Positions 17 through 42,287 of a DNA stretch of 64,000 nt are shown piece after piece (within the stretch, counting starts at the first letter, position 1; each line of letters begins with the position of its first letter). The notes under the pieces were generated by a model. The model was not told where the DNA came from and did not search any database. It was given only the letters and a program-made list of their open reading frames with translations. The position numbers were made by a program, and so were the translations under genes. This DNA is from Cavenderia fasciculata (Eukaryota > Evosea > Eumycetozoa > Acytosteliales > Cavenderiaceae). The stretch spans positions 1,116,001-1,180,000 of the forward strand of contig NW_004457624.1 of the NCBI RefSeq assembly GCF_000203815.1, read 5' to 3'.

Positions 17-2614
17 TTAAGCATGATTTTGAATAGAATCACAAATAATTGAATAGATAGTATTTAATAGTTTTGAAAAATCGTCACCAAGCTGCATAGT
101 ATTTAGGTCATCTCTACAATGACTTTCGAATACATTGATCATTACATCGGTGGAATTATTGATTCGAATGAAATTGTATTGGATACCTCGTTTTTTCAAG
201 TTGAGGAGAACTTGTTCTGGTCGTTCGGTGGTTGTACCTTTTGGATGTGAGTCTTCCTTTAGAATATGGTAATCGTAGCCGTGACATGGACTATCACAGG
301 AATGTAAAAGTATTTTAATGGTTGAAGACAGACCACCACTGCTACTATCCCATGCCAATCCTCTGACATGAATCAGTGCAGAGGCAATATCTTCAGGTTC
401 GTCACCTCCAGACGTTGTCACAACCTTTTTAATTTCTTGTTCAAACCATGCAGTATTTCGTGTAAATGAAATGATGGTCATTGGATCATTGTGATCTCTA
501 TAACCAACAAACGATGTCTCTAAAATGATATTATTGTGAATCTGTCGGAGTTTGGTCAAGAGATTGACCATCATTGATTTGACTTGTACGATCGAATCCT
601 TCATTGACGCTGTGCAGTCTAGTAACAGACACAGTTGAATCTTGGGAGGACTGCTACTATGATAGTGATGATGGCGATGACCGCGGTGGTCACTGTCATA
701 TTCAAAAGTCGCATGTACAGGTTCACAAGATCTCGTCATTGCAGTGACATTCAACTTGGTTTCACCAAATTGCATTGAAACTTGGATAAGAGTAGGTGTA
801 GTCGTTGTAGTAGTAGGTTGATCCAATCTAATCACAATAACTCCAATACGCTCACATCCCTTGTCTCTAACCGATTGTAAGTTGGTATCTGCACTTTGAT
901 AGATTGCAATCCTAGCTGTTTTCTGTCCTTTTACGAGTAGACTATAGGTACGTGTGACCTTGTGATTGTGGGGTACATGCTGACCTGCCTTTATGAAAAT
1001 GTCACATTGACCCTTTCGATACATGTTTCCATTAATGTTTAAGTCGGCCAAGTGCAGCAGATCTTCTCCAACGATATCATCTCCTTGCATCTGGCCGATA
1101 GTTTCAATAGCAAATGTTTTCTTTGTGATACGATGACCAAGGATGGTTTGGGTGAGTCCGTATCGACACGCACCTCTTACAACAGCCATCCCCGCTTCAC
1201 CTTGACGCATACGATGTATACCTTTTGACTTGGCTAAGTGTTCTAGACGGGTATCCTTGTTGACATAGTCTTGTAAACGAGGGCTATCAGAGAACCCACC
1301 AATCATAACTAGATGGTCGAATCTCTTTTCACCAACACTCTTTAATACCATGTCTCCCAACACCTTCAAGACTGGGTCGAAAAAGGATTGGAACAAGTCA
1401 GCTGGCAACCACAATGCATTATCTTTGTATTGAACATTTCCATTTGGTTTTTTTTGGTTGTATTGATTGACTTTCTCGATATACCATTCTGTTGTGTACT
1501 CATATTTACCATTCTCATCGGTAAAAGTGTCAATGTACATGCCAACCTTTATCACATCGGTTAGTTTATCGTTAACCTTTTGCGTTTCAAAGTTGTCCAA
1601 GAGTGTAGTGAATCGATGTGATGTCTCTGATCTCTTGACGGTATCATTGCCAAACACATTGGATAGAAACTCTACAAAGTTTAGATTAACAAAATTCGAT
1701 CCAATTGGATAGCCTCCCAATAACAATTCAATCATTTCTAATTGATTATCTTGATTTAATTTATATTCAATACAATCCTAAATTAATTAAATAATATTGA
1801 TTAATATTACAAATATAAATATAAATACATATGTATGAATACATACCAAAGTTGAATGTCCAGTAATAATGACCAAGAATGTATCATCCTTTTTAAACTT
1901 TTTAGTATCGTTGTTGTTGTTGTGGTGGAGGATAGATTCTATTGCACCGGCATCAGATTCAGAGCATAGTATCAATGAATCTATACCAGCAGCATTACGA
2001 TAGAATTGATCGGCAGAGAGGATGGAGTTGACGGGGACTGTTACAACCCATTGTACATCGTTGTTGGTCAAGACTGTCTTGTAAAAGATTGGTTCTGATT
2101 GTAGAGTTGAAAGTGCTCGATTCATAAGAAACCCAAGAGTATGTGATACCAACTCCATGGCAGTGATACTTTCATTTGGGTTAGAGTCTGATTGTACTAG
2201 AGAGTCTGCACCGTCATGATGATCAAGGACCACCATTTTAAAGTTGGAGAATGATGGACAGAGTTTGTACATGCCATCTTGTTTCTGGAGGTCTCTTGCT
2301 TCATATCCAAACGCCAATAGACGTCTTTCGGGCGTGTCAAGTGAAAATAGTGCCTTTGTCAATGTCTTGAAGGAGTGTGTTCCTGTCCAACTGACTTGTT
2401 TAATGGTAGGGCTGTCATTTGAAATGGCATAGGCTACTGCACAACCAGATTGACCAATCTCTATTGACACTACCGCCTTCTTTTCTTCAAGTGGTGTTTC
2501 AATCTTTACATTATAATTATCATCCTTATCATTATTATTACATTTATTATTATTATTACTATTATTATTACATTTACTATTACTCTGACGTATAATATAA
2601 TCTAGAAATGTCAT
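17..2614 (-). CDS. HSP70 (HSPA12-like) with C-terminal vWA domain
   Basis: Two exons, 2614-1847 and 1777-17, are joined by a 69-base GTATGT...TTTAG intron in phase 0 and give about 842 residues. Residues 1-440 form an HSP70-type ATPase domain of the divergent HSPA12 kind: phosphate-1 region SIEIGQSGCAVAYA and adenosine motif MIGGFSDSPRLQ. Phosphate-2, normally DLGGGT, is degraded to IITGHSTLD. A beta-rich segment like an HSP70 substrate-binding domain follows. Residues about 636-830 are a von Willebrand A domain with MIDAS DCTASM and the SFVGYRD and GGDEPED blocks typical of vWKA-type alpha-kinases, but no kinase follows. The start is the ATG after an AT-rich leader. This is the most divergent vWA-bearing member of the array; nucleotide hydrolysis is doubtful. 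No cell location signal is visible. Confidence 0.85.
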
Positions 2615-5519: not shown

Positions 5520-7215
5520 ATCTTTGACGATCTTCTCCAGTATTTGATGGACCTGAACTGTTTTGTTGAGATAAGAGACAAGTCTACGAACAAGTTCGTA
5601 GCTGTAAAGCGTATAACGATAAGACAAGGATATGAGTTGAGCAGATCGTCACAAACGAGTACGAATTCATCATCACTGAACTAATCGAGAATCGATCACT
5701 CGACACATTTGCCAAATACAATCCTACCTATTATGGAGACGAAGGACGTCTACATGGAGCAATCGTTCAGATTTTGAAGGGCTTGGCCTACTTCGAAAAA
5801 AACCTTATGACCCGTGTCGATGTGAGGCCAAGTAACATTCTCGTATCGGCAGACTGTACTTCAAAGCTTACAGGTATGTTGGTGTAATTTAAAGATGTTT
5901 GTAAATCTATGTAAAAAATATCAACTAATATAATATAATGTTGTGGTTAGATTTTGGAAAGGAAAAACCTGTAAATCCGCATTTGGATCATTATGGAGAG
6001 GAAGCATTCTTTAGGGGACCTGACACAAGTGACAAACCGAAGGATCATTTCAAATATTTGAAATCATACAAAAGTAATGATTTATGGGGTGCTGGTATTA
6101 CAATACTATTCCTTTGTTGTGGTGCTTATTATGGAGATTTTGAATTCGGCTACCACATTGGCAAGGATCGCTGCTTTCAAGTTTTAAAATCTCGATCAGT
6201 ATCGAATATAGATGCTTATAAATTAATACCAAAGGTAAATCAATATTGAATTTAATTCAATTCTATATTAATTTATTAATTCCTTTTTTTTTTGTTCAAA
6301 TAGATTTACTTGGAGGTGATTGACAAGTGTTTGTCTGGTGTATCAAACATTAAAGATATCTTGTTGGATCTTTCTGGGTTATTATCTTTTACCAAAGCTT
6401 TAAAGAAAGTTGACGATAGATATTTGCGGTCAGCACTCAAAGTTTTGGGAAAAGGAAGTCAGGCTACTGTATACAAGGGATGGGGCGGACAGAATCCATT
6501 CAAAAGAGTCGCCATAAAATGTTACAGTGTGGACCAAATCTCTCATAGCCTAAACATTTTCCGAATACCTAAGAAAGAGTTTGACATCATTTGCAAATTA
6601 GTTACCCAAACGTTCTCCGTTACTTGGATTATTGTGTAGATGAATCGAATCTAGTTTGTATAGTTATGGAGTATATGAAACACAAATCACTCTCCTACTT
6701 TATGGATAAAAAACCATGTTACTTTCAAACTGAAATCCATCTCAGACAAGCAATTATCCAGATACTAAAGGGTGTACAGTGTATTCACAACAACAATATC
6801 ATTCACAGAGATATTAAACCTGGAAATATTCTAGTATCATCAGATTATACTTTAAAGATTGCTGGTATGTTGTCAACAATTTTACATATTTAATATATCA
6901 ATATATAAATAGATATTTTTTTAATCAATCTAGATTTTGGAATGAGCAAGCACGATGAAGGAGAGAGAACAATTTCTACCCAAGTAGGATCACCATTGTT
7001 CCTTGCACCCATCTCTGATCGGAATAATGGAACCACAGTTCAAACAGATTTATGGAGTGTTGGGATCACCATTCTGTGTATGTGCCTCAACGCTTCCTAC
7101 AATTAAATCAGAAAGAGTATATTATTCAACTTGGAAAACTGTTGTCAAAAATACATTTGGATTTGATAGTTACCTCTCCAGCTCCAAAGCAACCTATCGT
7201 GGCACCTCTTTTTAA
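5520..7215 (+). pseudogene. Decayed tandem pseudokinase-kinase gene
   Basis: The stretch is colinear with the intact gene at 7802-9876. The first kinase unit begins around VAVKRIT near 5600, has lost a middle segment, and continues as YEFIITELIENRSLDTF through a catalytic loop changed to TRVDVRPSN. After an intron it reads DFGKEKP, and the C-lobe ends KSRSVSNIDAYKLIPK (about 6231). Unit two starts with IYLEVIDKCLSG at 6304 and has a good Gly loop (LGKGSQATVYKG) and HRDIKPGN. However, the frame shifts near 6590-6600, and TAA interrupts after LNASYN near 7105. Intron positions at the DFG and IPK junctions are kept. At least three breaks make it a pseudogene. Confidence 0.75.
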
Positions 7216-7801: not shown

Positions 7802-9876
7802 ATGCAGTTAGGTTTAGAAAATTTAAAAGATTTATCACTGGATGATCGAATACCAGTGAATGATGGATATAAATACTTTGCGTATAAAAACCCCAAAGAA
7901 ACATTTGGCTTAGGTGAACAGGGTGATTACATCGGAAGAGACAAGAAAAGAGACAGGTTCGTAGTTGTCAAGCGTATAACAAGAGATTCCATACCAGATC
8001 AAGATCAAACCTATCGACATTTAGAAACACAGATAATCAAACAACTTAATCATCCCAACGTAATACGTTGGTTGGACTATCATATTACAGATGGGTACGA
8101 ATACATCATTACCGAACTAATCGAAAATGGATCACTCCAAACATTTATCAAAGTTAATCCTACCTATTATAAAGAAGAAGGACATCTAAATGGGGCAATC
8201 GTACAGATATTGAAAGGATTGTCATACATTCACGCCAACAATCTCAAACACCGTGACATTAGACTAGGAAACATTTTAGTATCAGCAGAATATACTATAA
8301 AGATTGCTGGTAAGTTATCTATATCTTTCAAATGGTGTATCAAACTAACAAATGATATTTTATGTTTAAAAACAACATTATTAGGTTTAGAATATTGTGA
8401 GTTGGCCGATTTAGAAAAGACTATTTTTAGTCAGCATGGAAATCCATTGTATTTTGGACCTGATTATTATATAGATCCAGTAACAATACAGAATGATTTA
8501 TGGATGACTGGTATTACATTACTATTCTTTTGTTGCAACGTTTTTATCGGAGATTCTCTCTTGCAATTTTATCAAAAATTTGAGAGACACCAACGTTCAG
8601 TATCTGAATCACGGTCCGTATCGAATATTGATATGTACCAAGCAATCCCAAAGGTATTATTATAATGTCTCTGTTGAATCAAATGATATATGTATATTAA
8701 ATTTAAATTAACCTTCAATCATTCAAACAGATTTACTTGGAGACAATTGACTTGTGTTTATCTGGTACATCGACTATTCCTGCCATCCTCCAACACCTTG
8801 TACCAATTCCCCTCACTTTATCCCCGGACACTGACGATATTGAAAAACAACAGCAACAACAACCGTCAGTAGCAAAAGGGCCAGGGTTTAAGATGGCCAA
8901 AGACAGATACCAATACGCAACAAGTAAGGTTTTAGGAAGTGGTAGACAGGCAATAGTGTACAAGGGATGGGATGTGCAAAACTTTTACAAAAGAGTGGCC
9001 GTAAAATGTTTTGTCAATGTTAGAAGGTCAATGTCAAACGTATTCAGTATCCCCCGTGAAGAGTTTGTCATTATTCAGGGATTAGATCACCCAAACGTTC
9101 TCCGTTATTTGGATTATAGTATACATGAAGAGTCGAATCTCACCAATGAGTGTATCATTATGGAGAGAATGAAACACAAATCACTCTCCTACTTTATGGA
9201 TAAAGAGCCACATTACTTTCAAAATGGAACTAATCTCAGACAAGCAATTGGCCAGATACTAAAGGGTGTTCAGTATCTTCACAACAACAAAATCATTCAT
9301 AGGGATATCAAGCCTGGAAATATTTTAGTGTCAAAAGACTATACTTTAAAGATTTGCGGTATATACTGTTAATATTAAATATTAATGTTTATTACTAATA
9401 TCAATATATATTTAATCTAGATTTTGGAATGAGCAAGTATGAAGAAGGAGTCAGAGATGATTCCACTCAAGTAGGATCACCATTGTTCCTTGCACCCCTC
9501 TCTGATTTGATTAATGGAACTACAGTTCAAACAGATTTATGGAGTGTTGGGATCACCATGCTGTGTATGTGTTTGCATGTGTCATACGAATTAAATAAAA
9601 ATGACTGTATCATCCAAGTTGGAAAACTGTTGCTGAAAATACATCTCGAAAGGTCTGTTTCAGGAATCACCGAATTTAACAAAATACCAAAGGAAAATAT
9701 AGTAACAAGCATAGAGTACAGTAATGCCTGATCATTTATCTTAATTCCTTTTCTCGAAACTCTATTAATAGATTTACTTGTCTATAATCGATAAATGTTT
9801 ATCGGGCAAATCAAATATCGAAAAGATCCTGTCAGGTTTGGCTAATTTTAATAATCAACCAAGTAAAAAATTTTAA
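7802..9876 (+). CDS. Tandem pseudokinase-kinase protein
   Basis: Five exons (7802-8309, 8385-8653, 8731-9358, 9421-9701, 9772-9876) keep phase throughout and give 596 residues. The first unit, residues about 20-285, keeps the VVVKR lysine and HRD but has HRDIRLGN in the catalytic loop. It reads GLEYCEL where DFG belongs, so it lacks the metal-binding Asp and is probably a pseudokinase. The second unit, about 310-595, has LGSGRQAIVYKG, VAVKCF, HRDIKPGN, DFGMSK and the DLWSVGIT helix, and looks active. Each unit ends in IYLxxIDxCLSGxSxI, the kinase C-lobe end. The order pseudokinase-kinase resembles JAKs in layout only; no homology to JAKs is claimed. The last donor is at ATA|GTAACA, a few codons after the usual IPK junction. 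Confidence 0.8.
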
Positions 9877-10031
9877 TTTAGTACTCTTACTTTAGAAAGG
9901 TAGTACTTGATTTCTATTTTATAAACATACACGAGCATAACAATCTATACAATATAATGCTACTCTTTGATGCAAATAATTAAAATAACACAAATAAAAC
10001 ACATTTACAAATCGATCATTAATGGTTTATT

Positions 10032-10883
10032 TTAATTAGAATCTGTATTGTTTAATTGGGCAGATGGACAAATAGCTAATCGACATGCACCCCTGACTAC
10101 CGACAATGATGGTTGCTGTGGCACTATGACGTTGGTCGATGCAAACTCTTTCTTTATCAATTGTTGAAGGACATAGTTTTCACTAAACCCACCAATCATA
10201 AAGATATGAGCAAATGTATTTTTGTTCATTTCAGATTTGAGATGGCCCAAGATTTGTTGGAAAATTGGATTCAAAAAGAATTCGACAAACGAGGCGAATG
10301 GGATGGAAATAGTAGATCTGCTACGATCGTATAGAATATTTGGTGGTGTTTTCGAGTCCACTCGTTGGTTGATTCTTTCTGCAAACTCGAGTGGGGTAAA
10401 TTGAATGATTATTGGTCCTTTGTCATTGCAACGATCCTTGGCCATTGATTCTTTAATCAATTTGAATTTATTGACCAACTGGTCTAAACGATCACAATTA
10501 CTGGTAATCCCTAGCAAATCTACCAAAAAGTTTTTGAATATTATATCGCAATGGTTTGATCCACAGTCTACAAAAAGTGGAAGATCAATTATTTCAAATC
10601 CATTTTGTAATTTTTTATAAACTAAAAATAGAATATAAATAATGATTAGAATTGTTATCACATGTTTTGTTGTCTGTTTGTATCCACGTGCTTACCATTA
10701 AAACTCGAAGATTCTCTTCCAAGGTTGAGAACAAGAAATTGTTGTTCAGGTTTAATTTGATTGTCCATTGTTTTTGAAATACAATCCATTGCACCTGCTT
10801 TACTTTCTCCAACAAACCTTATCGAATCTAATAATAAAGGTGTTATATATATATAATAAATATGTTAATATTTAAATCAACAG

Positions 10884-10924
<41 letters not shown>

Positions 10925-12533
10925 ATACCTTTGATAGTGTCTATAGTACATAACCCTGCTTTTATTGCACATAACAGTATTGCCTTTTTAGAAATATTAT
11001 CAGATGTATCGGGTACTGTGATTACCCACAATACCTGACTTGGGTCGACATTGCTCTTGTATTCATCGTTTAGGCTTTCTAAACTTGTTTGTTTAAAGTA
11101 CTTGAGAGTCTCTGTAAAGAGTGTTTCAACCGATGCAATCTGATTACAATTATCAGCCTTGACCATTGTCTTTTCTCTTGACTCTGTGTTAAAGAGGACC
11201 ATCTTGTACTTTGAAAAGATAGCATTATGATCATGACGAGCACCATCACCAAATCTTGCGAGCTTGCCATACTTGTCAAGTGATATAACTGTCAATGTCT
11301 TCACTTTACATTTCAAAGCACTATTGTGTTTTGATAAAGTAAATGAAAAGGTACTACAATTTGAACCAATGTCAATAGCTACAATGTAATGTAGTATTTG
11401 CGGTCTGGTGACTATTGAAAAAATAGATAACAATTAAAAAAATCAAAAATATGATCAATTAATTATGTTAAAAAAATATTTTTAATTATTTTAATTACAT
11501 ACTTTTAAATAAATGACAATCTAAAGCATTATCAATTGTAACCCCAGATTTCTTTGTATTTAAACATAGATTTATCAATTCCCTATATTCCTGGAGATAA
11601 AAAATTTAAAAAAAAATTAAAATAACTAATTTAATAATTTTAAAATTGATTCATAAATTTATACAATACAAACATCTAAAATTATATTAAAATCATTAAT
11701 TTCCGAGATAGATCTTTTTGATTGGATTAGAATTTGATTTTTTATATCATAGACGTTACACTTTCCCAATCTGAATAGACAGAGTTGCAGGATTGTGATT
11801 CCGACACTCCACATGTCAGTGTGAAAGGAAGCTCCTTCTGTCTCCCTGTCAGGTGATCTAAAACTTTCTGTCCCTTGATTTAAAAGGAATGGAGATAGAC
11901 TTCTTTCTACGTTATACCTTGCCATACCAAAATCTAGAATAAATAATAAATAAAATTAGAAAGTAAAAAACAAAAAATCATTACTTACCACCTATTTTTA
12001 AAGTATAATCTTGAGATACGAAAATATTTCCTGGTTTAATATCTCCATGTATTATATTCTTTGAGTGGAGCTACTGGACACCCTCTAGTATTTGTTTTAT
12101 ATGATCGATGAGTTGTGATTCACCAACGTAGAAATGACGGTTATTGTTTAAGAATTTGTTCAAATTGTTGTTTGAAGCATATTCCATTACTATCAAGTCA
12201 TATGCCTTGTTTGAATTCTTTACCATAGAAGTATAATAATAATATTTAATTACATTCTTGTGATTCAGGGGTTGGATCATCAGAAATTCCGCACGTTGGG
12301 AGTTTGGCAATGCCAAAATCATCTGGCATCTTTTCACTACAATAAGAGTGTTCTTTTTATTGTCATTCCCTAGATAGGCTTTACCCTGCCCTCCTCCTCC
12401 AATTTGATGGGAAATTGATTTGGAATACCAATATCTATCTATATATTTCTTTTTCGAAACTTGATCTTTAGATATTAATATTAATAATTTTATATTTATT
12501 TTACTTTGGTACTATGATTTCAAACTTACACAT
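10032..12533 (-). CDS. Kinase-HSP70 fusion; kinase part damaged
   Basis: Seven exons are read as 12533-12530, 12465-11988, 11933-11674, 11590-11503, 11411-10929, 10827-10696 and 10621-10032. The N-terminal kinase has IGGGGQGKAYLG, VVVKRC, HGD in place of HRD, and DFGMAR. Its last exon (EYRELINLCLNT) splices in phase into the HSP70 start (VAIDIGSNCSTFSF). The HSP70 has degraded phosphate-2 (NLGRESSSF), a good MIGGFSENYVLQ motif, and ends after GACRLA with no substrate-binding or vWA part. An in-frame TAG lies in the kinase at 12073-12071, where relatives have Tyr, and an extra T near 12000 shifts frame before the DFG exon. The kinase module is therefore probably dead; the HSP70 exons are clean and could be expressed from an internal start. 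A 32-base poly-T lies in the intron at about 10889-10920. Confidence 0.65.
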
Positions 12534-12997: not shown

Positions 12998-14199
12998 ATG
13001 AATAAAACAGTTGTAGTTGCAAATGATAGATATGAATTTACAACAAATGATTGTATAGGTGAAGGAGCACAAGCAACAGTCTTTCTCGGTAGTGACAAGA
13101 GAACGGGCAAACGAGTAGCTATCAAACGTATTAAACATAGAATTATGGTTGGACAGCCTCCTTCAAATGCATTCAAAGTGCCCGAGGAGGAGTTTAAGAT
13201 CATCGAGCCACTCGATCATCCAAATGTACTGCGTTACTTGGACCACAGTCGTCATGTCGATGGTAACAAGGCCTATGAATATATTATTACAGAGTACATG
13301 GAGCACAAGTCTCTCAGTACATTCATCGAAACCAATCCTACTACCTATAAAGATACAAGTAGACTAAGAAAAGCATTCAAACAAATTTTAAAAGGTTTAT
13401 CTTATCTTCACAACAACAATATCATTCACAGAGATATTAAACCTGCCAATATACTAGTTTCATCAGATTATACTTTAAAGATTGCTGGTAAATCAAACAT
13501 TAAATTATAATTAACAATTAACTAAATATATTAATTTGTTTATTTTATTTAGATTTTGGAATGAGTAAATTGGATATACAAAGAAGTATAACCACTCAAG
13601 TTGGATCACAACTATTTAATGCACCTGATCATGCATATGGAACATCTAAACAAACTGATTTGTGGAGTTTAGGTATCACAATGTTATGTATGTGTATGAG
13701 TGCAACCTATGCAGGTGGTCATTTAACCATCTATCAAGACATCACTTCAGAACTACGAACTATTCATCAATCTAGATCTGTCTCTCAAATACCTAGATTT
13801 AATACAATTCCAAATGTATAAAAGACAAAAAAAGAAAAAAAGATTTATTATTTAATTATTTATTTAATTATTTTATTTTAGGAATATTTACTGGTTATTG
13901 ATAAATGTTTATCGGGAAAATCAAGTATTGAAGATATATTGTCTAGTCCACCTTTGGGTAATTATAAATGTCCAGGTGGAGGAGACCATGATTTTTCTGG
14001 AACCAATTTAGAACCAATTATGGATTATTCACACAAGGATGGATGGGGAGGTATTATCCATGGACATAAATGCTGTGGTCAATGTTCTGGTAACTTTCGT
14101 TGCAAAGGTAGATGCAATAATAAATGTGAACACCCAAGACAAGTCGGTACTAAAATACTTTCAAACTATTGTATCAAGTGTACCAAACTACTTAAATAA
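12998..14199 (+). CDS. Ser/Thr kinase with C-terminal Cys/His-rich domain
   Basis: Three exons (12998-13487, 13553-13815, 13882-14199) keep phase and give 356 residues. The kinase covers residues about 8-285: Gly loop IGEGAQATVFLG, VAIKRI lysine, HRDIKPAN catalytic loop, DFGMSK, and DLWSLGIT. The C-lobe ends in YLLVIDKCLSGKSSIEDIL. The final 75 residues hold HDFSGT, MDYSH, GWGG and a cysteine-rich tail (GHKCCGQC, CKGRC, CEHP, YCIKC) that looks metal-binding. I do not recognise this domain; its only relative here is the end of the next gene. All catalytic residues are present, so it should be an active kinase. The two introns fall at the DFG Asp codon (phase 1) and after IPN (phase 0), as in the whole family. 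Confidence 0.88.
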
Positions 14200-14445
14200 T
14201 AATAATAAATCAAGACCAACAACAAACAAAGGACAACTAGTAAGATATTTTTAAAACAAAAAAAAAAATAACCAAATCGGGATTGGAACAAGATCCGATT
14301 TTTTCAATCAAGACAGAACCAACAATTACGTAGCGATCATCACTCACTTTTCTCTTTTATTTTTACTTATTTATTTATTTAAAAAAAGAAAGAAAAAAAA
14401 AAAGAGATAGAATCAAAAAGATTAATAGTACTATGATAGAAGAGT

Positions 14446-15730
14446 ATGAGTGTCAAAAAAGTGAATGAAATTTATGAATATGCATCAGATCAATGTCTTG
14501 GCTCAAGTAATGCTACAGTGTTTCTTGGGAGAAACAAGATTACAAACAAACGTGTGGCTGTAAAACGGATCGTATATAGAAACATGGGGAGACCATCCAA
14601 TGAGTTTAAACTAACAGAGAGAGAGTTTCAACTCATTAGGCCACTCGACCACCCAAACGTATTGCAATACTTGGACTATGCGCGGGATGAGAGTGGTCAA
14701 GTAAAGACACACGAATATATTGTTATGGAAAATATGCCCAATCTGTCACTAGATACATTTATACTGAAAAACCCTGCATTGTATAAAGACCAATTACTAT
14801 TAGTCCAACATATGAAACAGGTACTAGAGGGTGTACAATATATTCACAACAACAATATCATACATCGTGATTTAAAACCAGAAAATATTCTAGTTTCTCA
14901 TGATTACATTTTAAAAATTGCTGGTATCTTATCTATCAATATGCATATCGATCTACTTTATTAATTTTAATATTAATATCAATTAATTTCTTTTTTTTTA
15001 TTTAGATTTTGGAATGAGTAAATTGGATGTAGGAGCAAGATCAATTTCAACTCAAGGAGGTAGTATAATATATAATGCACCTGATCGTTTATCAGGAACA
15101 TCAAAACAGACAGATTTGTGGAGTATCGGGATCACATTTTTATATATGTGTTTGAGTGCTACCACCAGTGGTCAAGAAGTTGTTAGATCATCTTTTCTGC
15201 CAGATATATGCTTTCATTTAAAATCAATCCAAGAAAATAGATCCGTTTCACATATTAATGGTTTTAATAATATACCAATGGTAATGTAACCAACTCATCA
15301 TCATCATCATCAAGCAAATAAATTGACAATTAATACCTTGTTCATTTAGATTTACTTGCAATTAATAGATAAATGCTTGTCAGGAACATCAAATATTGAA
15401 CATATTCTTTCTCAAGCTCCTTTTGTTTCAAGAGAGTATGCACATGAGTATGGACACGAGTATGGACACCAGTACTATGGAAACCAAATTTTGGATGATA
15501 ATATATGCTCAAATGGTGGTGGCCAACATGATTATTCAGGAACCAAGGTTGAAATAGTAATGGATTATTCGCATCGTGGAGGCTGGGGAGGCTATTATCA
15601 AGGACATCAATGTTGTCGAGGTTGTAAGGGAAGACCTTTCTGTCCTGGAGGTTGTAAATGTAAACATCCTAAAAAGACTAACAATATAGTTGCCTACTAT
15701 TGTATTGGATGTAATAAAATTAAAAATTAA
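14446..15730 (+). CDS. Ser/Thr kinase with C-terminal Cys/His-rich domain
   Basis: Three exons (14446-14923, 15006-15280, 15350-15730) keep phase and give 377 residues. This is a tandem paralogue of the gene 250 bases upstream. The kinase has VAVKRI, HRDLKPEN, DFGMSK and DLWSIGIT. The Gly loop is reduced to LGSSNATVFLG, missing one glycine, so ATP binding may be weaker. After IDKCLSGTSNIEHIL comes a His/Tyr/Glu-rich linker (HEYGHEYGHQYYG) and the Cys/His-rich tip: HDYSGT, MDYSH, GWGG, GHQCCRGC, CPGGCKC, YCIGCNK. The tip is conserved in spacing with the upstream copy, which supports a real folded domain. Function is unknown. Confidence 0.88.
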
Positions 15731-27832: not shown

Positions 27833-27920
27833 ATAAAAAAAAAAAAAAAAAGAAAAAAAAAGAAATATTATTTATTTTAAAAAAATCTAAAACCTAATGT
27901 TTATTTATTTATTTATTTTT

Positions 27921-30532
27921 TTAACATTTAGTAATTGAATTTGAAACAAATGTTACGATTGATGGGATTAATTGACCAAAATCAGATCCCAAATTTACAA
28001 CCACAATCTTCTTTTGGTCGGTATCATAAGTCGATCTAAATACTTCAATCATCTTGTCTGTTAGATGATTAATTCTAACAAAATAATAATCAATTCCTCT
28101 ACCCTTCATGGTTCTAATTTGTTCTTCTGGATGTGTAGAGTCACCATCTGGATAACTATCTTCTTCTCTGGTAAGTGAATGGTATTTTGTACCGTGACAA
28201 GGAGCGTCGGCAACATGTACACAAACTTTGGTGTAACCTTCTTTCCACACTTGTGATAGTACTTGTTGGAATCCACCAACAATGTCTTCTGGGCAATCTT
28301 TTCCTCCATCTGCTTCAATTGGTGTCAATGAAATTTGAAGTGATGCCTAAAATTGATCAAATATTAATAACAATATATAATATATTTATATATCTACATA
28401 CCATATCAGTTGTAAATGGGATAACTTCAAATCTAGTAGCATCAGTTAAATCACGATAACCAATAAAACTAACTTCTAGTTGAATACCAGTATGGGCAGA
28501 TGAAAGTCCTGTTGCAAGATCTACCATCTTACATTTAGCTTGATCTATCCATGGTTTCATTGATCCAGTAACATCCATTAGAATACAAAGTTGAACTCGA
28601 GGTGATTTTGATTTTAACATTCTAATTTTGTTTCTTCTTTCAGCTTCTTCACGATTCATTGCAAAATCAATGACTGTATCGACCTTTGTTCCACTCTTGA
28701 TATGACGTGCACTGACCTCTAATTCTGTACGACCAAATTTCATTGTTGCCTCTATCTTTCTGTCTTCCAATGTGCCGCCTTGAGGGATGGATAACATTAA
28801 ATCGGCAATAAATGATATTCCAGGATCGGTAGAATAGAGCATCTTGGGAAGGGTCGATGAAAACACTGCAAGTTCGACAAACTTTTGATCACTTCTAGTT
28901 GGGAGATAGGTCTTGGTGATTACTTCATCATAACCGATTTTCTGTTCAGCCTGAACATAGACATCACAAACATTTCGAGCATATGGTTTACCATTGATCA
29001 TAAATGGTTTTTGACCGACATGTGGCTTTTCAGTTGTGATGGGTTCATCCATTTCAATGGCATATGAACGAGGAATGATACGTCTGATAGTAGTAGATGG
29101 ACTAAATCCAAATCTTGTGGCACCCTTGACAACCGATAGAGATGGACGACTAGGAATAATGAATTTAGCACCAGTCGATGCAAACTCTTTCTTTACCAAT
29201 TCCTGTAGGAAATAGTTTTCACTAAAACCACCAATCATAAATATATAGGTTGGATTCTTGAGTAGTGGGTTATAATTCATCTTGTCTTTGATACATTTGA
29301 TAATCTTTTCAAACAAAGGTTCAAAAAATGATTTAATAACCTTCATTGGTAAACTTAAAAAGATTGAACTTTTAAACTCTACATTTGTTCCATTCTTTGT
29401 GTTGTAGAGTTTAATCTTTTCATTTACCCATTCTGCCGACTTTCCAAATAGATTCTTTGGGTTCATTGTAATGTTTCGTGGTTTACCATCACCCCATTCT
29501 GGATTTGAAATGGATCTCTTTAATACCTCGAAAGTATCCATCAGGCTGACAAAGTCTGGTCCTTCCATATGCTCCTCCACCTCTTTACCAAGCAACTCTA
29601 CCAAGAACTTTTTAAAGTTATCATTGACGTTGATCGAACCCCATGGACCTCCAAATGGTGCAACGATATCTTCAAACTTGCCATGATCCAATTGAAGTTT
29701 ACCTACAAAATCCTAAAATAGATTAAAAAGTGATATTGATGATTAGTTATAAGTGAAATTAAATAAATACATGTAGATTATATTATTTAAAATGACATAC
29801 ACAAGTACCACCTCCATTATCAAGGATTAAAAGTTTCTCACCAACTTTGACTTGATAGATCTCTCCCAAAGTTTCAAATACACAATCTAAAGCACCAGCT
29901 TCTGGTTCAAAACAAAGTAATACCGAATCTAGATTTGATATCAAAGATGTTAGAAAATAGAATAGAATTTCGATAGCTGATTCAAAGTCATTTGAATTTG
30001 ACATACCTTTATCACCGGCAACACATAACCCAGCATCAACAGCACACTGACGCATGATATGTTTAGCAGCATCATCCCAGATAGCAGGTACTGTTAGAAC
30101 CCACATGATATCTGATGGTTGGAGTTTGTTTAGTAGAGACAAGTTGATTCGATCCAAACTAACACGTTTAAAGTATCTGAGTGTCTCTGTAATGAGCTTC
30201 TTGACCGATACCTTTCTATTGGTGTTGATAGCCTTGACCATCGAGTTTTCTCTAGAACTTGAATCAAAGAGTTTCATCTTGAAGCCAGCATACAAATTCA
30301 AGTCTGGGTATGATCTTGCTTCATAACCAAACTTTTGTAGGTTATCACCATCATCCAATCCTACCAAGGTCAATGTTTTACTATTATTTGAACCTCCACC
30401 ACCCTCCCAATCGTGAGCATATATATTAGGGTCATTTCCACGCTCTCCTGCTTGATGAATGAATGAATATGAAAATGAACTGAGTGAACTTCCCAAATCA
30501 ATAGAAATAATTGCTATTTTTGAACAAGACAT
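27921..30532 (-). CDS. HSP70 (HSPA12-like) with C-terminal vWA domain
   Basis: Four exons (30532-30007, 29928-29801, 29712-28402, 28346-27921) keep phase and give 796 residues. The HSP70 part has SIDLGSSLSSFSYSF, an intact phosphate-2 (LDNGGGTCDF) and MIGGFSENYFLQ, so ATP binding is likely. A substrate-binding beta-like region follows (NGKPYARNVCDVYVQAG; KFGRTELEVSA). From about residue 615, the vWA domain has MIDAS MDVTGSM, SFIGYRD, GGKDCPED and HVADAPCHG, as in vWKA alpha-kinases. The vWA is interrupted by one intron absent from the paralogue at 39697. The gene runs tail to tail with the AT-hook gene, 88 bases apart. Exact function is unknown. Confidence 0.9.
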
Positions 30533-30916
30533 TTTTTTTAAATTATTTGCTTGCTTCTATAAGTTCGAACAAGATATATAACTTTTTAATTATAGTTCAA
30601 GCAGTTCATACATATACGAAACAACTAAATTGAATATTCAAGTATTATAATAATGATGTTCAAATAATAAGATGTAATGATAAATATTTAAAGAATATAT
30701 TTTTATCAATCTCCTCCTCCTCGTACATTAATTTTTAAATCTAATCTAGATGACTAAAGTTATTATGATAATATATTTGTAAGATATCTCCTCCTAGTTG
30801 ACATCATTTAACTAAAAGTAAGTATTTAAGTACTTTAAATTGGCTCATCAAGACTTCAAAAGTTATTATTCTTATTATTATTATCAATCACTAATTATTA
30901 TTATTATTATACATTC
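30533..30916. other. Divergent intergenic region
   Basis: AT-rich, with TTA/TTATTA repeats close to 30868-30911. It serves as the upstream region of both flanking genes. I see no coding or RNA gene. Confidence 0.6.
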
Positions 30917-32610
30917 ATGCAACCCTGTAGTGATCGTGATTTAACAATACCAATAAAGGGAGGCAGTAAGTTTAGTAATTTCTTCAGTGCACTTTTCCGA
31001 AGTAAAAAGAATAGTTTGTATCTTCTTCTTCTTCTTCCTCCTCTTCTTCTTCTTCCAATTGCAAGAGACACTCTAGAGTTTGTAACTAACTTTTTATCTC
31101 TTATTATAATAGCTCCAACCTATGCCTCAATTGAACACCAACAACTCCAAGATGATTTGAATGTATTTGCAGCCAAGAATGAGAGCTTGGTCGATGAAAA
31201 CAAAAAATTGAAAGATGAAGTGGTAGTCTTGGAGAAAAGAATCAGTGCCAATACAAATTTGAACACCAATGCTGTTAGCAAACTCAACAATGATATCAAC
31301 AAACTCAAAAATGATATCACCAGTTTGAAAAGAGATTTACAAAGTGAGATCACGACCAACAATATACTTAATGGCACTGTGTTGGAGCACAGAAATTTGG
31401 CTACCTCCTACAAGGAACATAAAGTTGAAATGGCTGCCATTCAAAGATCTCTTGAAGAAAAAAAAGAAAGAATTGTTGGAACGTGATAACAAAATTCAAT
31501 CGTTGGAGAACCTATCAAGAGAAAATGAAGAAAAGATTGTCTATCAAATCGCAAAGATCAATGAATATATCGAGATTCTCGACAATCATCAAAAGAAAAG
31601 TGGTCAACAAACAGCAACCCAATTCATTTCAAACAACCACAATGAGACCATTCTCAACACCAAAAGATTCCCAATCGATAGGCTTGGTGATGCATGGAAT
31701 ACCTTTATCATGCAGGTCGTTGCAAATTTTCTAGATCTTCCCCACCATGGATTGAGGGCCAAGGCTATTTTCGTGTCAAAAGTATTTGAAGGATGCTTTG
31801 GTATCTGCCAAGATATGATCTATGGTCCAATTAATCAACTTGGTGAGAGATTTCAATTCTCCAACGAAAGTAGAATGAAATTGGAGAGTATGCTATTGGA
31901 TATAGTTGCAGAATTGGATCCAAAAACAACCATCCCATATCAAAAAGCAAGATACTATTATCGTCAAGCAAATGAAGAGTATGTACATTCCCATTAATGT
32001 TTACTTTATTGGTTCAATCTATTTTTTTTATTCACCTTTCTCTCTCTCTCTCTGTTTTGATAGAACTTTTCTAGGTCCTCTCATTGATGGTTGTTGTGAT
32101 TTGGCATGGAAGATATTATTGTGCCAACCATCGGTTTTGGTTCCTGCTGGTGACACCACGGTAGATTTTGATAGTTCTCAACACCAAACCTTCCCAGGGT
32201 CACCAGACAATGGATGTATTGACTTTTTTGTTTTACCTCCTACTCTGAGCACCAAAAGCAACACTCCAATTACAAAGGCATTGGTGTTTTTAAAACAGCA
32301 AGTACCAGAGGAAACAAAAAATCATCATGTCTCCCATGTTGAACCAACCAACCATATTGATCAATCAACCAACCATATTGATCAATCGACCCACCATACG
32401 GACGCCCATCTTGAATCTACCAACCAAAATCCATTGTCGACAACAATTGATACTAAAGACCAATTAAAGAATGAAAATACTGGCTCCTCCATAATCAAGA
32501 GTCGAGTAGTTAAACAGCTTTCACCCAATACTATGATGGAAGAATATAGTTATGTGCAAGAACCAAAAAAACAATCGAAAAACCAAAATAATGGAAGAAA
32601 GAAAGAATAA
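30917..32610 (+). CDS. Coiled-coil membrane protein, unknown function
   Basis: The N-terminus is polar (MQPCSDRDLTIPIKGGS) and is followed by a hydrophobic Leu-rich segment (LYLLLLLPPLLLLPIA), a probable membrane anchor. About 120 residues of coiled coil with many Lys/Glu/Asn heptads come next. The frame changes in the A-run at 31451-31470: one frame stops at TGA while the other continues the coiled coil (ELLERDNKIQSLEN). A globular helical region (FIMQVVANFLDLPHHGL...LGERFQFSNESRMKLESM) is split by an intron at 31979-32063, and a Thr/His/Gln repeat tail (TNHIDQS) ends at 32610. Either a poly-A assembly error or a frameshift explains the break. I cannot assign a family. Confidence 0.6.
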
Positions 32611-35283: not shown

Positions 35284-37048
35284 TTATTTAATATTAATGA
35301 AATCGATAGTTGCATTTATCTTTTGATTGGTTTGTAGGTGTTTGGCAGACACAAATATTTCTGTTGATCCAAATCCAATATCTAGTTCGACCACTCTGTC
35401 ATTTGGAGAATCGCCAGATGATGGAAATTCAAAATGGATATTACCAATAAACAAGACTCCAGAGTCTGTTGTTTTGTTTATGACTGGTAGTACAGAGGAA
35501 TATAAAGCTATTTTAGCAAATTGTTGGTTTTCTAGATTTGGTATGAATCTAAGAAAAGTTGTTTTGTTTACTAAAATTGAATCCCTTGCTCGGGCCAAGA
35601 GTCTACACTCGTCGCTCTGACCGGGAGCGGCGGCGGCATATGATCTTTGAAGGGTACGTTTGAAAATGGTTGACAGACGAGTACTACCGAGTCTGCATGC
35701 TCCCCTGAGTACAGAAAGATGCGGACAACTTGGCACTACGAGTTGGGCACCAGTCCATTCAAACTCTTGCTTTACCAACTGTTGAAGGAAATAGTTTTCA
35801 CTAAAGCCACCAACCATAAAGATATATGTTGGTCTAATGGCATAGGGGAGGTAGGATTGATGTTTCATATATTCCAATATTTTTTGGAACGACGGTTGAA
35901 AAAAGGTCAAAAAAGTATCAAATGGGATGCATAGATGACCAGACCTTTTGTAACATATTTCTGTTCCATGTAATCTATTGTATGTTTCGACTCTTTGGAC
36001 TAGCCAATCGATACTCTTGTTAAAATCTCGTGGATTAAATGAAATGTGTCTTGGCCTGCCGTCATTACTGCATGAATCACACATTGATTGTTTAAGTATT
36101 TCAAACCGGTCCATCAATGTCATTAAATAAGGACTATCAATAATATTGTGTGACACTTCGTCACCAAATAAATCCAATATGAATGCCTTAAATAGTTGGT
36201 TGCATTGGATATTGCCAAAGTTGTCTCCAAATGTGATTAAACTTTCTAAATTTCCATCAGCCAAGTATCTGTACACTAAAAGAAATAAAGTGATTAGTTT
36301 TTTTCTTTCATCAGAGACTCTTATGACAAACACTGGTGACACTCTTACCAGAACATTCAAAATGGTTTGAAGCTAAATTACAAACGAGAAAAGCTTGACC
36401 AATTTCAACACATCCATTAAAAGATTGGATACACTCTACTGCACCAGCATCTGACTCGTAAGCCAATAATAATGATTCTAATAAAATATTAATTAGTGCA
36501 AAATAAATATAATATATTATATTATTATGATTATAGATAGTAGTAGTCTTCATACCTTGATGATTGTCTATAGTACATAAACCAGCATTGATAGCACACT
36601 GACGCATTACTTGTTTTGCAACATCATCCCAAATTGCAGGTACTGTGATGACCCATAATACTGATTGATCAAGTGGTGGTACCCAAGACATCATTTTTAA
36701 TCTTGCTTGTGACCCTAGATACTTGAGTGACTCTGTGATGAGTGTTTCTACCGATGCAGCTTGATCACAATTATCAGCCTTGACCATTGTCTTTTCTCTA
36801 GACTCTGAGTCAAACAGTAGCATCTTGTAGTTTGAAAAGATAGCATTATCATGATCTTCACGAGCATCGTAACCAAACTTTGAAAAGCCTCCAGTCTCGT
36901 CAAGTGATATAACAGCCACTGTCTTTGTCTTTCCATCTCCCCAACTATTAAATTCGCTGTGAATGATATCTCTATTAGGATAAGATATTGAATATCCACT
37001 ACGATTTGTGCCCAACTGAATTGATACTACTACTATTTGAGGTGACAT
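35284..37048 (-). CDS. HSP70 (HSPA12-like), vWA lost
   Basis: Three exons (37048-36556, 36477-36349, 36275-35284) keep phase and give 537 residues. Phosphate-1 is SIQLGTNRSGYS, phosphate-2 is degraded (CNLASNHFECSG), and the adenosine motif is MVGGFSENYFLQ. The substrate-binding-like segment is shortened: it starts directly at an SILVNKTTFLRF region and ends at KINATIDFINIK, just before the point where relatives begin the vWA domain. The frame is clean, so it is probably expressed as a truncated family member. It lies head to tail with the next HSP70 gene upstream at 37378. Confidence 0.8.
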
Positions 37049-37377: not shown

Positions 37378-39294
37378 TTACTTTCCTAGACGTTCTTTAT
37401 TTCTTCTTTCGGCTTCTTCTCTAGTCATTGCAAATTCTATGGTAGCATCTATCTTTTGAAGTGTTTTAATTTGAATGGCAGATACAAATACTTCGGTGGC
37501 ACCAAACTTCATAGTGACAATAACCGATTTATCTTCAAGATTGTCGCCTGGTGGTACTGGGATTTTGATTTCAGCGGCAAAGGAAATACCAGGTTCGGTT
37601 GTGTATTTGATGTCAGACAAGAGTGAAGTGAATATTGCAATGTTGACAGAGGTTGCTGCAGCACTGACTGGTCCATATCCTCGAGTTACTATTTCGTCGA
37701 TACCAACAGACTGCCAGCAACAACAAATGGACTACAAACATTATTTGCATACAACTTTCCATTGACAAGATAAGGTTGTCTACCAACATGTTTTTCAGGT
37801 GTCATCTCTTCTATCACCTCGACAGCATACGATCTTTGGATAGTACGTTTGGTAATGACAGATGGACGTAGACCAAATCTACATGCACCCTTGACTACAG
37901 ACAATGATGGTCGGGTTGGTACTATAATCCTGGCACCAGTCGATGCAAACTCTCTCTTTACCAATTCTTGTAGGAAATAGTTATCACTAAATCCACCAAT
38001 CATAAAGATAAAATTTGGTTTCTTGATGGCATCGTTTTGTAGCATTTGTTGCTTGACGCAATCTACTATTTTGTGGAATAGTGGTTGTAAAAAGGTCATA
38101 AATGATTCCATGGGAATGACAAGATGACCCGATCTCTTGTATTCGATATTGGCAGTGGTGGCAGCATTGTATTTTTGAATTCGTTGGAGTAGCCAATCGA
38201 TATTCTTGTCAAATACACGTGGATTAAATGAAATGTATCTTGGCTTGCCATCGTTGGCGCTACTATCACACATGGACTTCTTGGCACTTTCAAACCTATC
38301 CATCAATGCCATGAAATCAGTACCATCAATCATATCTTGTGTCACCTCATCACCAAGTAAATCCAACATAAATTTCTTAAAGTTTTTGTTACAATAAGTT
38401 GATCCAAAATTACCTCCAAATGGTCTGACAATTCCTTCAATCTTTCCATCAGCCAATTGTTTATAAACTTTAATCAAATAATGAAATAAGTAAATTAATA
38501 AACAATGATCAATAATAACAATAATTAAATATTACATACCAGTAAAATCAGCAGTACCTCCACCAATATCAAATACAAGAACAATTTGACCAGCCTCTAC
38601 ACTATAGTTATTTGTTTTTTCAAAAATACAATCCATAGCTCCACTCTCTGGTTCATATGCAAGTATTAATGATTCTAAAGAAAAAGAAGAAGAAGAAGAA
38701 AGATAATTAATTAAACAAGAAGAAAGGTGATGTGAATATGATATATCTGACATGTTTCATACCTTTATCATTAGCAATAGTACATAAACCAGCACTGATA
38801 GCACACCGACGCATGATTTGTTTAGCTGCGTCATCCCAAATGGCAGGTACTGTGATGACCCATAGAACTTGACTTGGTTCAACTGCGTTGGTGTTGCCAT
38901 TGTTGATTCTCTCCAAACTTGTTTGTTTAAAGAACTTTAGAGTCTCTGTGATGAGTGTTTCAACCGATGCAGTTTGATCACAATTATCAGCCTTGACCAT
39001 TGTCTTTTCTCTCGACTCTGAGTCAAATAGTACCATCTTGAAGTTTGAAAAGATAGCATTATCATGATCTTCACGAGCATCATAACCAAACTTTACAAGC
39101 TTTCCATTCACATCGATTGATATCAAGGTCAATGTCTTTAAACTAGTCGATCCACCCCCAGGCCACGAATCGTGTACATAGATATCAACATTATTTTCTG
39201 TTATAAATGAATATGCATAGCCACTACAACTAGTACCAAAGTCGATTGATACAACTACTTTTTTGTGTGCAGATACAACACCACTTGACAGCAT
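37378..39294 (-). CDS. HSP70 (HSPA12-like), vWA lost, one frame break
   Basis: Three exons (39294-38763, 38674-38540, 38467-37378). The ATPase motifs are excellent: SIDFGTSCSGYAYSF, DIGGGTADFTG, MIGGFSDNYFLQ. In the substrate-binding-like region the frame breaks near 37715 (VVAG, then QSVGIDEIVTRG), consistent with one lost base. It then resumes to KFGATEVFVSA and stops after AERRNKERLGK, exactly where relatives enter the vWA domain. With the frame break, the main product would be a nucleotide-binding domain of about 480 residues. Exon structure equals that of its neighbours. Confidence 0.75.
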
Positions 39295-39696: not shown

Positions 39697-42287
39697 TTAA
39701 CATTGAGTAATTGAATTTGAAACAAATGATACCAAAGATGGAATTAATTTAGTGACATCTGAACCTAGATTGGCAACCACTATCTTCTTTTGGTCGGTAT
39801 CATAGGTCTTTCTAAATTCTTCAATCATCCGATCGGTTTGATGATTAATCTTGATGAAATAATAATCGATTCCTCTATTCTTCATGGTTTTGATTTGTTC
39901 TTCTGGAGGAACATTTGTATCACCGTGTGGTAAAGAATCGGAAACTGCACCGAAATCATGATACTTTGTACCGTGACAGGGAGCGTCAGCAACATGTATA
40001 CACACTTTGGTATACCCTTCTTTCCATTCTTGTAATAGGACATGTTGGAATCCACCAACTACATCTTCTGGAATATCTCCACCTCCACTTGCAACGATCT
40101 TTGCCAAACCTTGTTCGAGTACCTCCATGTTTGATGAAAATGCAATGTTTTCAAATCGAATGGGATCAGTGTAGTCACGGTAACCAACAAATGAAACTTC
40201 AAATTGTATACCAGCGTATGCATTGGATAGTACTTTGGCAAGTTGAACCATCTTGTTTTTGGCCTCGTTGATCCATGATTGCATCGATCCGGTGATATCC
40301 ATGCAAATGCAGAGTTGTACCGACAGAGGTTTAGTCTTTTCAAGACGGATCTTGTTTCTTCTATCAATCTCTTCATTGGTCATTGCAAATTTAATGGAAG
40401 AGTTGACTTTGACACCAGTCTTTACATGACGAGCTGTAACAAATACTTCAGTGGCACCAAACTCTAATGTCACATCGACCTTTCTATCCTCCAGTGTGTC
40501 GCCTGGTGGAATAGCTAGAGTTAGATCACCAGCAAATGAGATTGCAGGATTGGTTGTATAGTCCATCTGTGCGAGATGTGATGTAAATATGGCGAGCTCG
40601 ACAACCTGTTGATTTTCACTAGTTGGTACAAAAGTCTTTGTTTTACTTTCACTCAGACCAATAGATTCACCAGCCTTGACAAACACATCACACACATTCT
40701 TGGCATATGGTTTACCATTGATTATACATTGTTGTCTTCCATTGTGTGGAGTGTCGGCAGTGATGAGACCGTCAACCTCGAGAGCATATGATTTTTGGAC
40801 AATACGTTTAGTGACGACCCATGGACGGAGACCGAATCTACATGCACCCTTGACAACACACAAAGATGGTCGTAGTGGTATTATGACATTTTCACCACCG
40901 GGTCCACGTCCAAACTCTTTCTTTATCAATTGTTGAAGGAAATAGTTTTCACTAAACCCACCAATCATAAAGATATGAGTTGGGTTGCAAATGGCAGGGT
41001 TGGTGTTCATTTGATCCTTGATGCAGTCAATAATACTCTTGAATAATGGGTTGAGAAACAACTCCATAAAAGTGTTTAATGGGATATAGAGATGACCAGA
41101 TCTCTTGTATTCAAGGCCGGCACCTTGGTGTCGGTGGTTATAGTCATTGACTCTTCCAATGAACCATTCAATAGATTGGTCAATCGTTCTTGGACTAAAT
41201 GCAATGATTCTTGGCTTGTCATCGCTACAAGATTCGCTTGAACACATTGACCTTTTAACAATTTCAAATCTATCCAACAAAGTAATAAAGTCGAGACTAT
41301 TGATGATTTCTTGTTGTTTGGGAGGAAGGAAGCCAAACAAATCCAACAAGAAATCCTTAAATCTTGCATTGCTATAAGTAGACCCGTAATTGCCACCAAA
41401 TGGTCTAACAATACTTTCAATCTTTCCATCTGCCAATTGTCTGTAAACTATCATAAAACATTGTAATATATTAGTCGGATATATTCATTTATTCATTCAT
41501 TCATTCATTCAGTACTTATACCGTATTTACTACATACCAGTAAAATCAACAGTACCTCCACCAAGATCACAAACAAGAACCGTTTGACCAACCTCTACAT
41601 GGTAGAGACGTGTTCTTTCAAATATACAATCCATAGCTCCACTCTCTGGTTCATATGCAAGTAACAATGATTCTAAAAAATAAAGAAGAGATAATAATTA
41701 ATTACTAAAGGGTTGATGTGATTTATAAATGTTGATCTTTTGAATTATATTGATGACATACCTTTATCATCAGCAATAGTACATAAACCAGCTTTGATAG
41801 CACACTGACGCATGATTTGTTTAGCAGCATCATCCCAAATTGCAGGTACTGTGATGACCCATAGTACATCACTTTGATGGATCTTGTTCTTTCTAGCATT
41901 ATTGATTCTCTCCAAAACTGTTTGTCCAAAGAACCTGAGAGTCTCTGTGATGAGCCATTCGACCGATGCAGTTTGATCACAATTATCAGCCTTGACCATT
42001 GTCTTTTCTCTAGACACCGAGTTAAAGAGTACCATCTTGTAGTTTGAAAAGATAGCATTACCGTGATCTTCACGAGCATCATAACCAAACTTTGATAGTC
42101 TCCCGTGTTGGTCGAGCGAGATTACAGTTACTGTCTTTGAGTTGACACAGCCTCCTCCAGCCCAAGAGTCGTGTACATAGATATTTACATTTTCATCACT
42201 ATTGGTTATAAATGCATAAGCACTACCACTACAACTAGTACCAAAGTCAATAGCCACTGCTGCTGTTTTGTGTTTTGGTAAAACCAT
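39697..42287 (-). CDS. HSP70 (HSPA12-like) with C-terminal vWA domain
   Basis: Three exons (42287-41762, 41672-41538, 41457-39697 read with acceptor at 41448-41449, so coding from 41447) give 803 residues. All HSP70 nucleotide motifs are intact: AIDFGTSCSGSAYAF, CDLGGGTVDFTG, MIGGFSENYFLQ. The beta-rich substrate-binding-like region follows (FGATEVFVTARHVKTG). The vWA domain spans about residues 595-800, with MIDAS CMDITGSM, SFVGYRD, SGGGDIPEDV and HVADAPCHG. This is the best-preserved long member and the best reference for the family. It is likely a cytosolic ATP-dependent protein with a metal-dependent binding face; partner unknown. Confidence 0.92.

Follow-up and report, generated by a model that had tools for sequence, protein, structure and literature searches.

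The 64,000-nucleotide stretch of the Cavenderia fasciculata genome analysed here (the window; C21:1116001-1180000 in a genome of 31.0 Mb on 21 contigs, C21 being NW_004457624.1) carries, between positions 17 and 42287, an array of nine HSP70-like genes and one HSP70 remnant, together with eight kinase genes that hold ten kinase domains. One of these HSP70 genes, H7, stands head-to-head with a coiled-coil gene with a MIEAP-like domain (CCP), and the same arrangement with an HSP70 of this family holds for each of the four CCP genes found in the genome. The recurrent pair suggests a working stress-response unit, not random shuffling. We tentatively favour, with somewhat less than even confidence, a birth-and-death array around an older conserved divergent HSP70/CCP pair, which would act as a damage-response chaperone-scaffold with captured kinases. 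The sequence-only reading of this DNA had placed kinase-HSP70 shuffling at the centre and had missed the MIEAP-like partner, which is the best clue to function. Its observation of the array was right and slightly understated; it is re-centred here on the conserved HSP70/Mieap-like pair, surrounded by a noisy, partly decaying array.

The pair of the window and its counterparts elsewhere in the genome are listed below.

27921..30532, minus strand: H7, HSP70-SBDbeta-vWA gene, open frame, phosphate-2 motif present, CCP partner
30533..30916, no strand: divergent intergenic region between H7 and CCP, 384 bp
30917..32610, plus strand: CCP, coiled-coil gene with a MIEAP-like domain, head-to-head with H7
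C21:1204329-1206840 (L017): CCP copy paired with C21a
C21:1207269-1209832: C21a, HSP70-vWA
C10:485397-487180 (L045): CCP copy paired with C10a
C10:487533-494555: C10 locus, with one HSP70-vWA, one HSP70, one truncated copy and one chimera
C3:272105-273582 (L047): CCP copy paired with C3a
C3:274109-277.2k: C3 locus, with one HSP70 and one truncated copy

A genome search with the globular domain of CCP returned eight exon matches, all within four genes. These four genes are 30-68% identical, have an intron at a roughly equivalent site and lie 352-526 bp from their HSP70 partners, three of which carry a vWA domain. Divergence among the CCPs roughly tracks that of the partner HSP70s (r = 0.79, 6 pairs). 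All four partners (H7, C21a, C10a, and C3a) keep the ATP motif D.GGGT.D (phosphate-2), and none of the six HSP70s without it, among the 13 compared, has a CCP neighbour. The HSP70 may act on a CCP scaffold. PF16026 (MIEAP) was the sole family matched by all four CCP domains (E up to 1), with a best value of 4.1e-5, and the CCP protein of the window matched it at 1.3e-5. Used as a genome query, PF16026 hit two places, both of them CCP genes (E 0.016 and 0.37). With about 12,850 genes (an extrapolation from 164 kb), a head-to-head position next to any of 16 family HSP70s is expected for about one random gene in 800; since all four pairs probably go back to a single pair by copying, this figure was not multiplied. 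The gene adjoining the pair is a kinase at C21:1210-1212k and C3:269-272k; in the window, 3.8 kb and two gene models separate H7 from the kinase K8.

The remaining members of the array, from left to right, are as follows.

17..2614, minus strand: H1, HSP70-SBDbeta-like-vWA gene, 842 amino acids, open frame
5547..7215, plus strand: K1, kinase-kinase gene, degenerate first domain, frame breaks near 5610-5636 and 6537-6603
7802..9876, plus strand: K2, pseudokinase (GLE for DFG) followed by a canonical kinase
10032..11411, minus strand: H2, HSP70 ATPase module without its own ATG, intron-joined to K5
11504..12511, minus strand: K5, kinase part of K5-H2, with an in-frame TAG (about 12071-12073) and HGD for HRD
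12998..14199, plus strand: K3, kinase, open frame, Cys-rich module at the C-terminus
14446..15730, plus strand: K4, kinase, open frame, C-terminal Cys-rich module
15939..17281, minus strand: H3, HSP70 ATPase part of K6-H3
17278..18325, minus strand: K6, kinase module of the K6-H3 fusion
18706..18955, minus strand: H4, HSP70 remnant behind K7 (18706-18804; junction 18848-18955)
18848..19685, minus strand: K7, kinase part of K7-H4, a degraded fusion that duplicates K6-H3 in tandem
19867..21331, minus strand: H5, lone HSP70 ATPase domain with its own ATG, open frame, phosphate-2 motif gone
21619..22922, minus strand: H6, HSP70 ATPase module without ATG, joined to K8 via an intron at 22923-22996
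22997..24092, minus strand: K8, kinase of the K8-H6 fusion, exon 2 frame shift at about 23357-23364
35284..37048, minus strand: H8, HSP70, open frame, no vWA, phosphate-2 motif gone
37378..39294, minus strand: H9, HSP70, no vWA, frame-shifted at about 37710-37714
39697..42287, minus strand: H10, HSP70-SBDbeta-vWA gene, open frame

Gene models were built from open frames and a home-made gene finder, and the splice sites were then corrected by hand; a first hidden-Markov gene-finder run merged genes and was dropped for a stricter one. The genome is AT-rich, with short, AT-rich introns and proteins rich in N, T, and Q. The array is bounded by the end of H1 at 17 and the start of H10 at 42287, and the gene finder placed genes of other kinds on both flanks. 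Its internal similarity exceeds chance: positions 1-43000 contain 27 direct-repeat families of at least 60 bases whose copies are at least 60% identical. Gene models and a genome search with H10 confirmed the nine HSP70-like genes claimed earlier, all nine on the minus strand; the remnant H4 was seen in translated frames only. The H10 search gave 42 exon matches, which comprise the array, the C21, C10, and C3 loci and four weak vWA-only places. All five layouts proposed before (HSP70 alone, HSP70-vWA, kinase-HSP70, kinase-kinase, and kinase-Cys-rich) are present. Open frames occur in all five HSP70-vWA genes found in the genome, in both kinase-Cys-rich genes and in several HSP70s without vWA; the array kinases are partly decayed. 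Within the array, the open frame at 24967-25581 matches Integrase_H2C2 below the cut-off (3.6e-05; 24.2 vs 25.5 bits) and has AT-hook-like stretches, and is possibly a retroelement remnant. To the left of the window lies a patatin-like phospholipase gene (C21:1112948-1114084, L009; PF01734, 1.9e-18), and farther left a gene in two near-identical copies, NmrA-like by eye.

The HSP70s of the array come in three layouts: HSP70-SBDbeta-vWA (H1, H7, and H10), SBDbeta without vWA (H8 and H9), and the ATPase domain only (H2, H3, H5, and H6). Nine spliced proteins were scanned against PF00012, a set in which H3, H6, C10a, and C10b were not represented whole. Three exceeded the cut-off (H9, 36.6 bits; H10, 24.5; C21a, 25.8), two fell under it (H8, 15.3; C3a, 19.1) and four of the nine (H1, H2, H5, and H7) gave no match. 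A family profile of eight members matched Hsp70/BiP/DnaK chains in the PDB, the best at 1.5e-6. Motifs were compared in 13 HSP70s, the partial copies C10c, C10d, C3b, and H4 being set aside. Phosphate-1, phosphate-2, and adenosine motifs are all present in seven of the 13. D.GGGT.D is kept in H7, H9, H10, C21a, C10a, C10b, and C3a (7/13) and lost in H1, H2, H3, H5, H6, and H8 (6/13). The family reads VPAIW in 8/13 members, vs VPAYF at the canonical HSP70 loci of the same genome (L001, L002, L003, L007, and L008). We take VPAIW to be a hallmark of HSPA12, and the family HSP70s are probably HSPA12-like. They lack the two marks of a canonical HSP70, the helical lid (SBDalpha) and VPAYF: SBDbeta is followed by a vWA or by nothing.

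The vWA domain scored above the cut-off of PF25106 (VWA_4) in exon 2 of H1 and in H7, H10, and C21a, the scan covering these four of the five HSP70-vWA proteins (all except C10a). The metal motif DxTGS (metal ion-dependent adhesion site, MIDAS) is present in four of the five, H1 having DCTAS. A structural model of the large exon of H10 (pLDDT 77.8, pTM 0.44) was searched with Foldseek; DnaK was the best match (5.3e-11, about 415 columns covering lobe II and SBDbeta), followed by the vWA domains of integrin beta. In the model the vWA thus takes the position of the helical lid of other HSP70s; a vWA as lid replacement would be an unusual HSP70 construction. TM-scores of about 0.25 make the relative placement of the domains in the model unreliable. 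No relative of the H10 large exon was confirmed among 222 prokaryote and 48 viral pattern matches. The description of the domain as vWKA-type stands as far as vWA is concerned, given the VWA_4 match; the four other vWA places in the genome are weak, vWA-only and just 25-28% identical to the array vWA. Dictyostelid VwkA shares the vWA domain with the array proteins and differs from them in its alpha-kinase domain, which they lack. Two vWA genes elsewhere (C1:703448-705715 and C21:2848824-2851400; L051 and L052) have a similar N-terminal region, ubiquitin-like by eye.

Introns tie the modules into one lineage in several combinations with a divergent HSP70, in agreement with the sequence-only reading. 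The two phase-1 HSP70 introns that it described occur at the same sites in six of the nine genes (H2, H3, H5, H8, H9, and H10); H7 keeps the first and has as its second a phase-0 intron about ten bases away, and H1 and H6 have only this phase-0 HSP70 intron, the single intron of H1. An ATG lies 5-12 codons before the first motif in H5, H7, H8, H9, and H10, and 46 codons before it in H1. The frames of H2 and H6 have no ATG ahead of the first motif, and their joins to kinases therefore look like real exon joins.

The kinase count of at least five units was an undercount, since ten domains in eight genes lie at 5547-24092. The two K2 units match Pkinase at 5.7e-24 and 1.3e-26; the last exon of K2 (9772-9876) has a shifted donor and is uncertain, and the exons of K4 were re-read as 14446-14923, 15006-15280, and 15350-15730. 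A phase-1 intron in the Asp of DFG is found in eight of the ten domains (K1a, K1b, K2a, K2b, K3, K4, K6, and K8), K2a having kept it although DFG itself is lost (GLE). The phase-0 intron after IPK/IPN was found in K1a, K2a, K3, and K8. Among 84 further genomic kinase matches, 72 pass unbroken through DFG and 12 end near it. Among the 114 of 229 candidates scored in the genome search, the closest kinases are those of the array and of C21:1210-1212k, followed by one on C13 (41%). K1a and K2a group with this C13 kinase (100/99), away from the other kinases in the tree; K1 and K2 have a pseudokinase-kinase tandem layout, and the C13 kinase (C13:281928) is degenerate. No HSP70 was seen beside the C13 kinase within the 8 kb read. 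The Cys-rich module occurs at two places in the genome, the tails of K3 and K4, where it has no Pfam match and its predicted structure (pLDDT 35.5) was unusable.

All four kinase-HSP70 fusions (K5-H2, K6-H3, K7-H4, and K8-H6) carry lesions, that of K6-H3 being a frame shift at about 17278-17281, at the join and within a T run. The shifts of K6-H3 and of the C3 kinase both lie in homopolymers, and are thus possibly sequencing errors and no proof of decay. Given these lesions and the lost ATP motif of H2, H3, and H6, the fusions look like by-products of unequal exchange. A kinase-HSP70 fusion as the functional core was rejected, as every fusion carries a lesion and none was seen at other HSP70 loci. 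The proposal of a combinatorial array is supported for the several combinations and is not supported where it suggests many working fusions. Outside the window, the kinase tail at C21:1210283-1211894 (L018) continues in-frame with a coiled coil duplicated from the adjacent CCP (82% over 158 amino acids), its kinase exon 2 being frame-shifted, and C10:493545-494555 (L046) joins a CCP-like N-terminus (65% over 23 amino acids) to the C-terminal half of an HSP70; these two chimeras indicate exchange with the CCP partner. The kinase beside the CCP on C3 (C3:269288-272012; L053, L047) shows both array intron sites by eye. It is 26% identical to K3 (1.7e-14), is frame-shifted within a run of A, and extends into a long C-terminal region with no Pfam match.

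Three groups were resolved in the HSP70 tree, H10 with C21a (C21:1207k) and C10a (100/100), H9 with its sister C10b (97/99), and H2 with H3 and H5 (91/87); six of ten inner branches are open. The branches of H1 and H6 are very long. Ratios of nonsynonymous to synonymous substitution rates (dN/dS) are 0.15-0.28 in five HSP70-vWA pairs (two with dS >1.4), 0.19 for H9-C10b, 0.36-0.40 for C3a-C10b, H9-H10, and H8-H9, and 0.42-0.54 among H2, H3, and H5. For the kinases, among which K8-K3 gave no estimate, they are 0.41-0.48 among K6, K7, and the C21 kinase and 0.20 for K3-K4 and K3-K6. No estimated pair exceeds 1. The HSP70-vWA genes are under purifying selection, and the ATPase-only copies, which have lost the ATP motif, evolve faster. 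This pattern fits a constrained core with relaxed side branches.

From the observed gene content and order, motifs, introns, fold class, linkage, and selection regime, we propose the following mechanism, in which a physical HSP70-CCP interaction, a mitochondrial or damage role and a role for the kinases are inferred. The conserved unit would be a divergent gene pair encoding an HSP70, its lid replaced by a vWA or lost, and a Mieap-like coiled-coil protein; a kinase from a single family, defined by its introns, often lies close by. The HSP70 ATPase would power cycles of client capture, in which the vWA, by metal-dependent peptide binding, might supply or replace the grip of the lid. The coiled-coil Mieap-like protein would be the client or scaffold, and the HSP70 may switch its assembly at damaged membranes, probably those of mitochondria. 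The kinases would phosphorylate the CCP assembly or report from it. Copies that lack the ATP motif or are fused to kinases would be variable, partly decaying side branches that arose via unequal exchange.

Several results weigh against this proposal. The correlation of 0.79 comes from only six non-independent pairs. No CCP adjoins H1, H8, H9, H10, or C10b, although three of these (H9, H10, and C10b) have the ATP motif. Every MIEAP match lies under the Pfam cut-off of 27 bits (best 25.7), and a PDB search with the CCP domain matched no chain. Block duplication could preserve the linkage without function, and the pairs are probable copies of a single one. No kinase was seen at the C10 pair within the 17 kb read, and a heat-shock-element core occurs in one of four divergent regions (no shuffled control). 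Finally, the dN/dS of H6-H2 is 0.28 (saturated), not raised like those among H2, H3, and H5.

A diversifying recognition locus for non-self, bacterial or viral targets, with HSP70-vWA as sensor, CCP as assembly scaffold, and kinases as output, appears rather unlikely. Its mode of action would be that of paired immune receptor genes, or of the chaperone/vWA conflict systems known from multicellular bacteria. A birth-and-death array with several disabled copies, head-to-head pairs, and kinase and Cys-rich modules would suit it, and so would the raised dN/dS among H2, H3, and H5 and among K6, K7, and the C21 kinase. In plants, NLR genes paired head-to-head likewise form divergent pairs inside birth-and-death clusters, their protein families being unrelated to those of the array. 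Excerpts of a study of bacterial conflict systems (PMC7159879) describe neighbourhoods that combine HSP70s with or without a peptide-binding part, vWA domains, and kinases fused to zinc ribbons. The array resembles the prokaryotic chaperone/vWA and HSP70-containing GTPase systems of those excerpts in its HSP70s with or without a peptide-binding part and in variable copies, and shares with them a vWA as peptide-binding partner and a kinase with a zinc-binding module; unlike them, it has eukaryotic introns and no recognised MoxR/GTPase core. A scan of array proteins and of part of the neighbours revealed neither a MoxR nor a TRAFAC GTPase core. What speaks against recognition is purifying selection, on the HSP70-vWA genes as on K3-K4, with no pair above 1, and that no effector domain (nuclease, pore or protease) was recognised in the array proteins scanned.

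Neutral turnover, which we regard as improbable, would explain the array as a tandem HSP70/kinase cluster shaped by unequal exchange, with block-copied CCP linkage, accidental fusions, and no common function. The lesions in all four fusions, the kinases that appear broken (K1, C21:1210k, and C13), and the truncated or chimeric HSP70s at C10 and C3 agree with it. It does not account well for five of five HSP70-vWA genes with open frames under purifying selection, for a CCP-HSP70 linkage that persists at four loci even where CCP identity has fallen to about 30%, or for a kinase with the same intron sites adjoining the pair at C3 too. A classical heat-shock expansion, in which the HSP70s would be general foldases, is very improbable: the HSP70 fold with SBDbeta in the H10 model and two GAAATTTC cores within 400 bases upstream of H10 favour it, whereas the core appears in just one of four divergent regions and not upstream of H1, H5, H8, H9, and C10b (again without a shuffled control), the lid is replaced or lost, the ATP motif is gone in 6/13, and VPAIW replaces the VPAYF of the canonical genes.

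The claim that the array is undescribed agrees with our search of the open-licence PMC literature, which excludes subscription papers and preprints and gave no description of an HSP70-vWA-kinase array or of an HSP70-Mieap gene pair. The family resembles HSPA12A/HSPA12B-type HSP70s and those of the bivalve orthogroup OG10, which is presumably HSPA12-like, in its divergent ATPase domain and multigene expansion; unlike them, the array has a vWA after SBDbeta, a paired Mieap-like gene, and kinases fused or near. To our knowledge, the role of the large animal HSP70 expansions is open and the partners of Mieap are poorly known. Bivalves share a parallel expansion of the Mieap family alongside HSP70s (PMC8382680): the HSP70 orthogroup has 68.1 genes per species vs 4.4 in other molluscs, and the Mieap orthogroup 53.1 vs 0.6. 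The authors hold that both expanded orthogroups handle intracellular damage, and their main text mentions no physical HSP70-Mieap pairing (PMC8382680). Passages of a second study describe cardiolipin binding and mitochondrial condensates for Mieap (PMC10845071). CCP is like Mieap/SPATA18 (PF16026) in its coiled coil and C-terminal domain, with all four matches below the cut-off; for CCP, a mitochondrial location and cardiolipin binding are putative. In passages of a further study, HSPA12A and SPATA18 are both raised in zebra mussel gills under cadmium and SPATA18 is lowered in the quagga mussel, the directions given for SPATA18 being inconsistent between two passages (PMC11036304).

A broader idea, which we consider unlikely, is that an HSPA12-like HSP70 and a Mieap-like scaffold together make up an ancient module of two proteins for stress or conflict, common to amoebozoans and animals. 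A lid-swapped HSP70-vWA would then remodel a Mieap-type condensate at damaged organelles, and the module would be kept here as a divergent pair with captured kinases and in bivalves as an expansion to dozens of copies in each species. The fourfold physical pairing of the two kinds of gene in a compact amoeba genome opens the way to a direct genetic test. Should the two proteins work together, one mechanism would tie two families that are co-expanding in bivalves.

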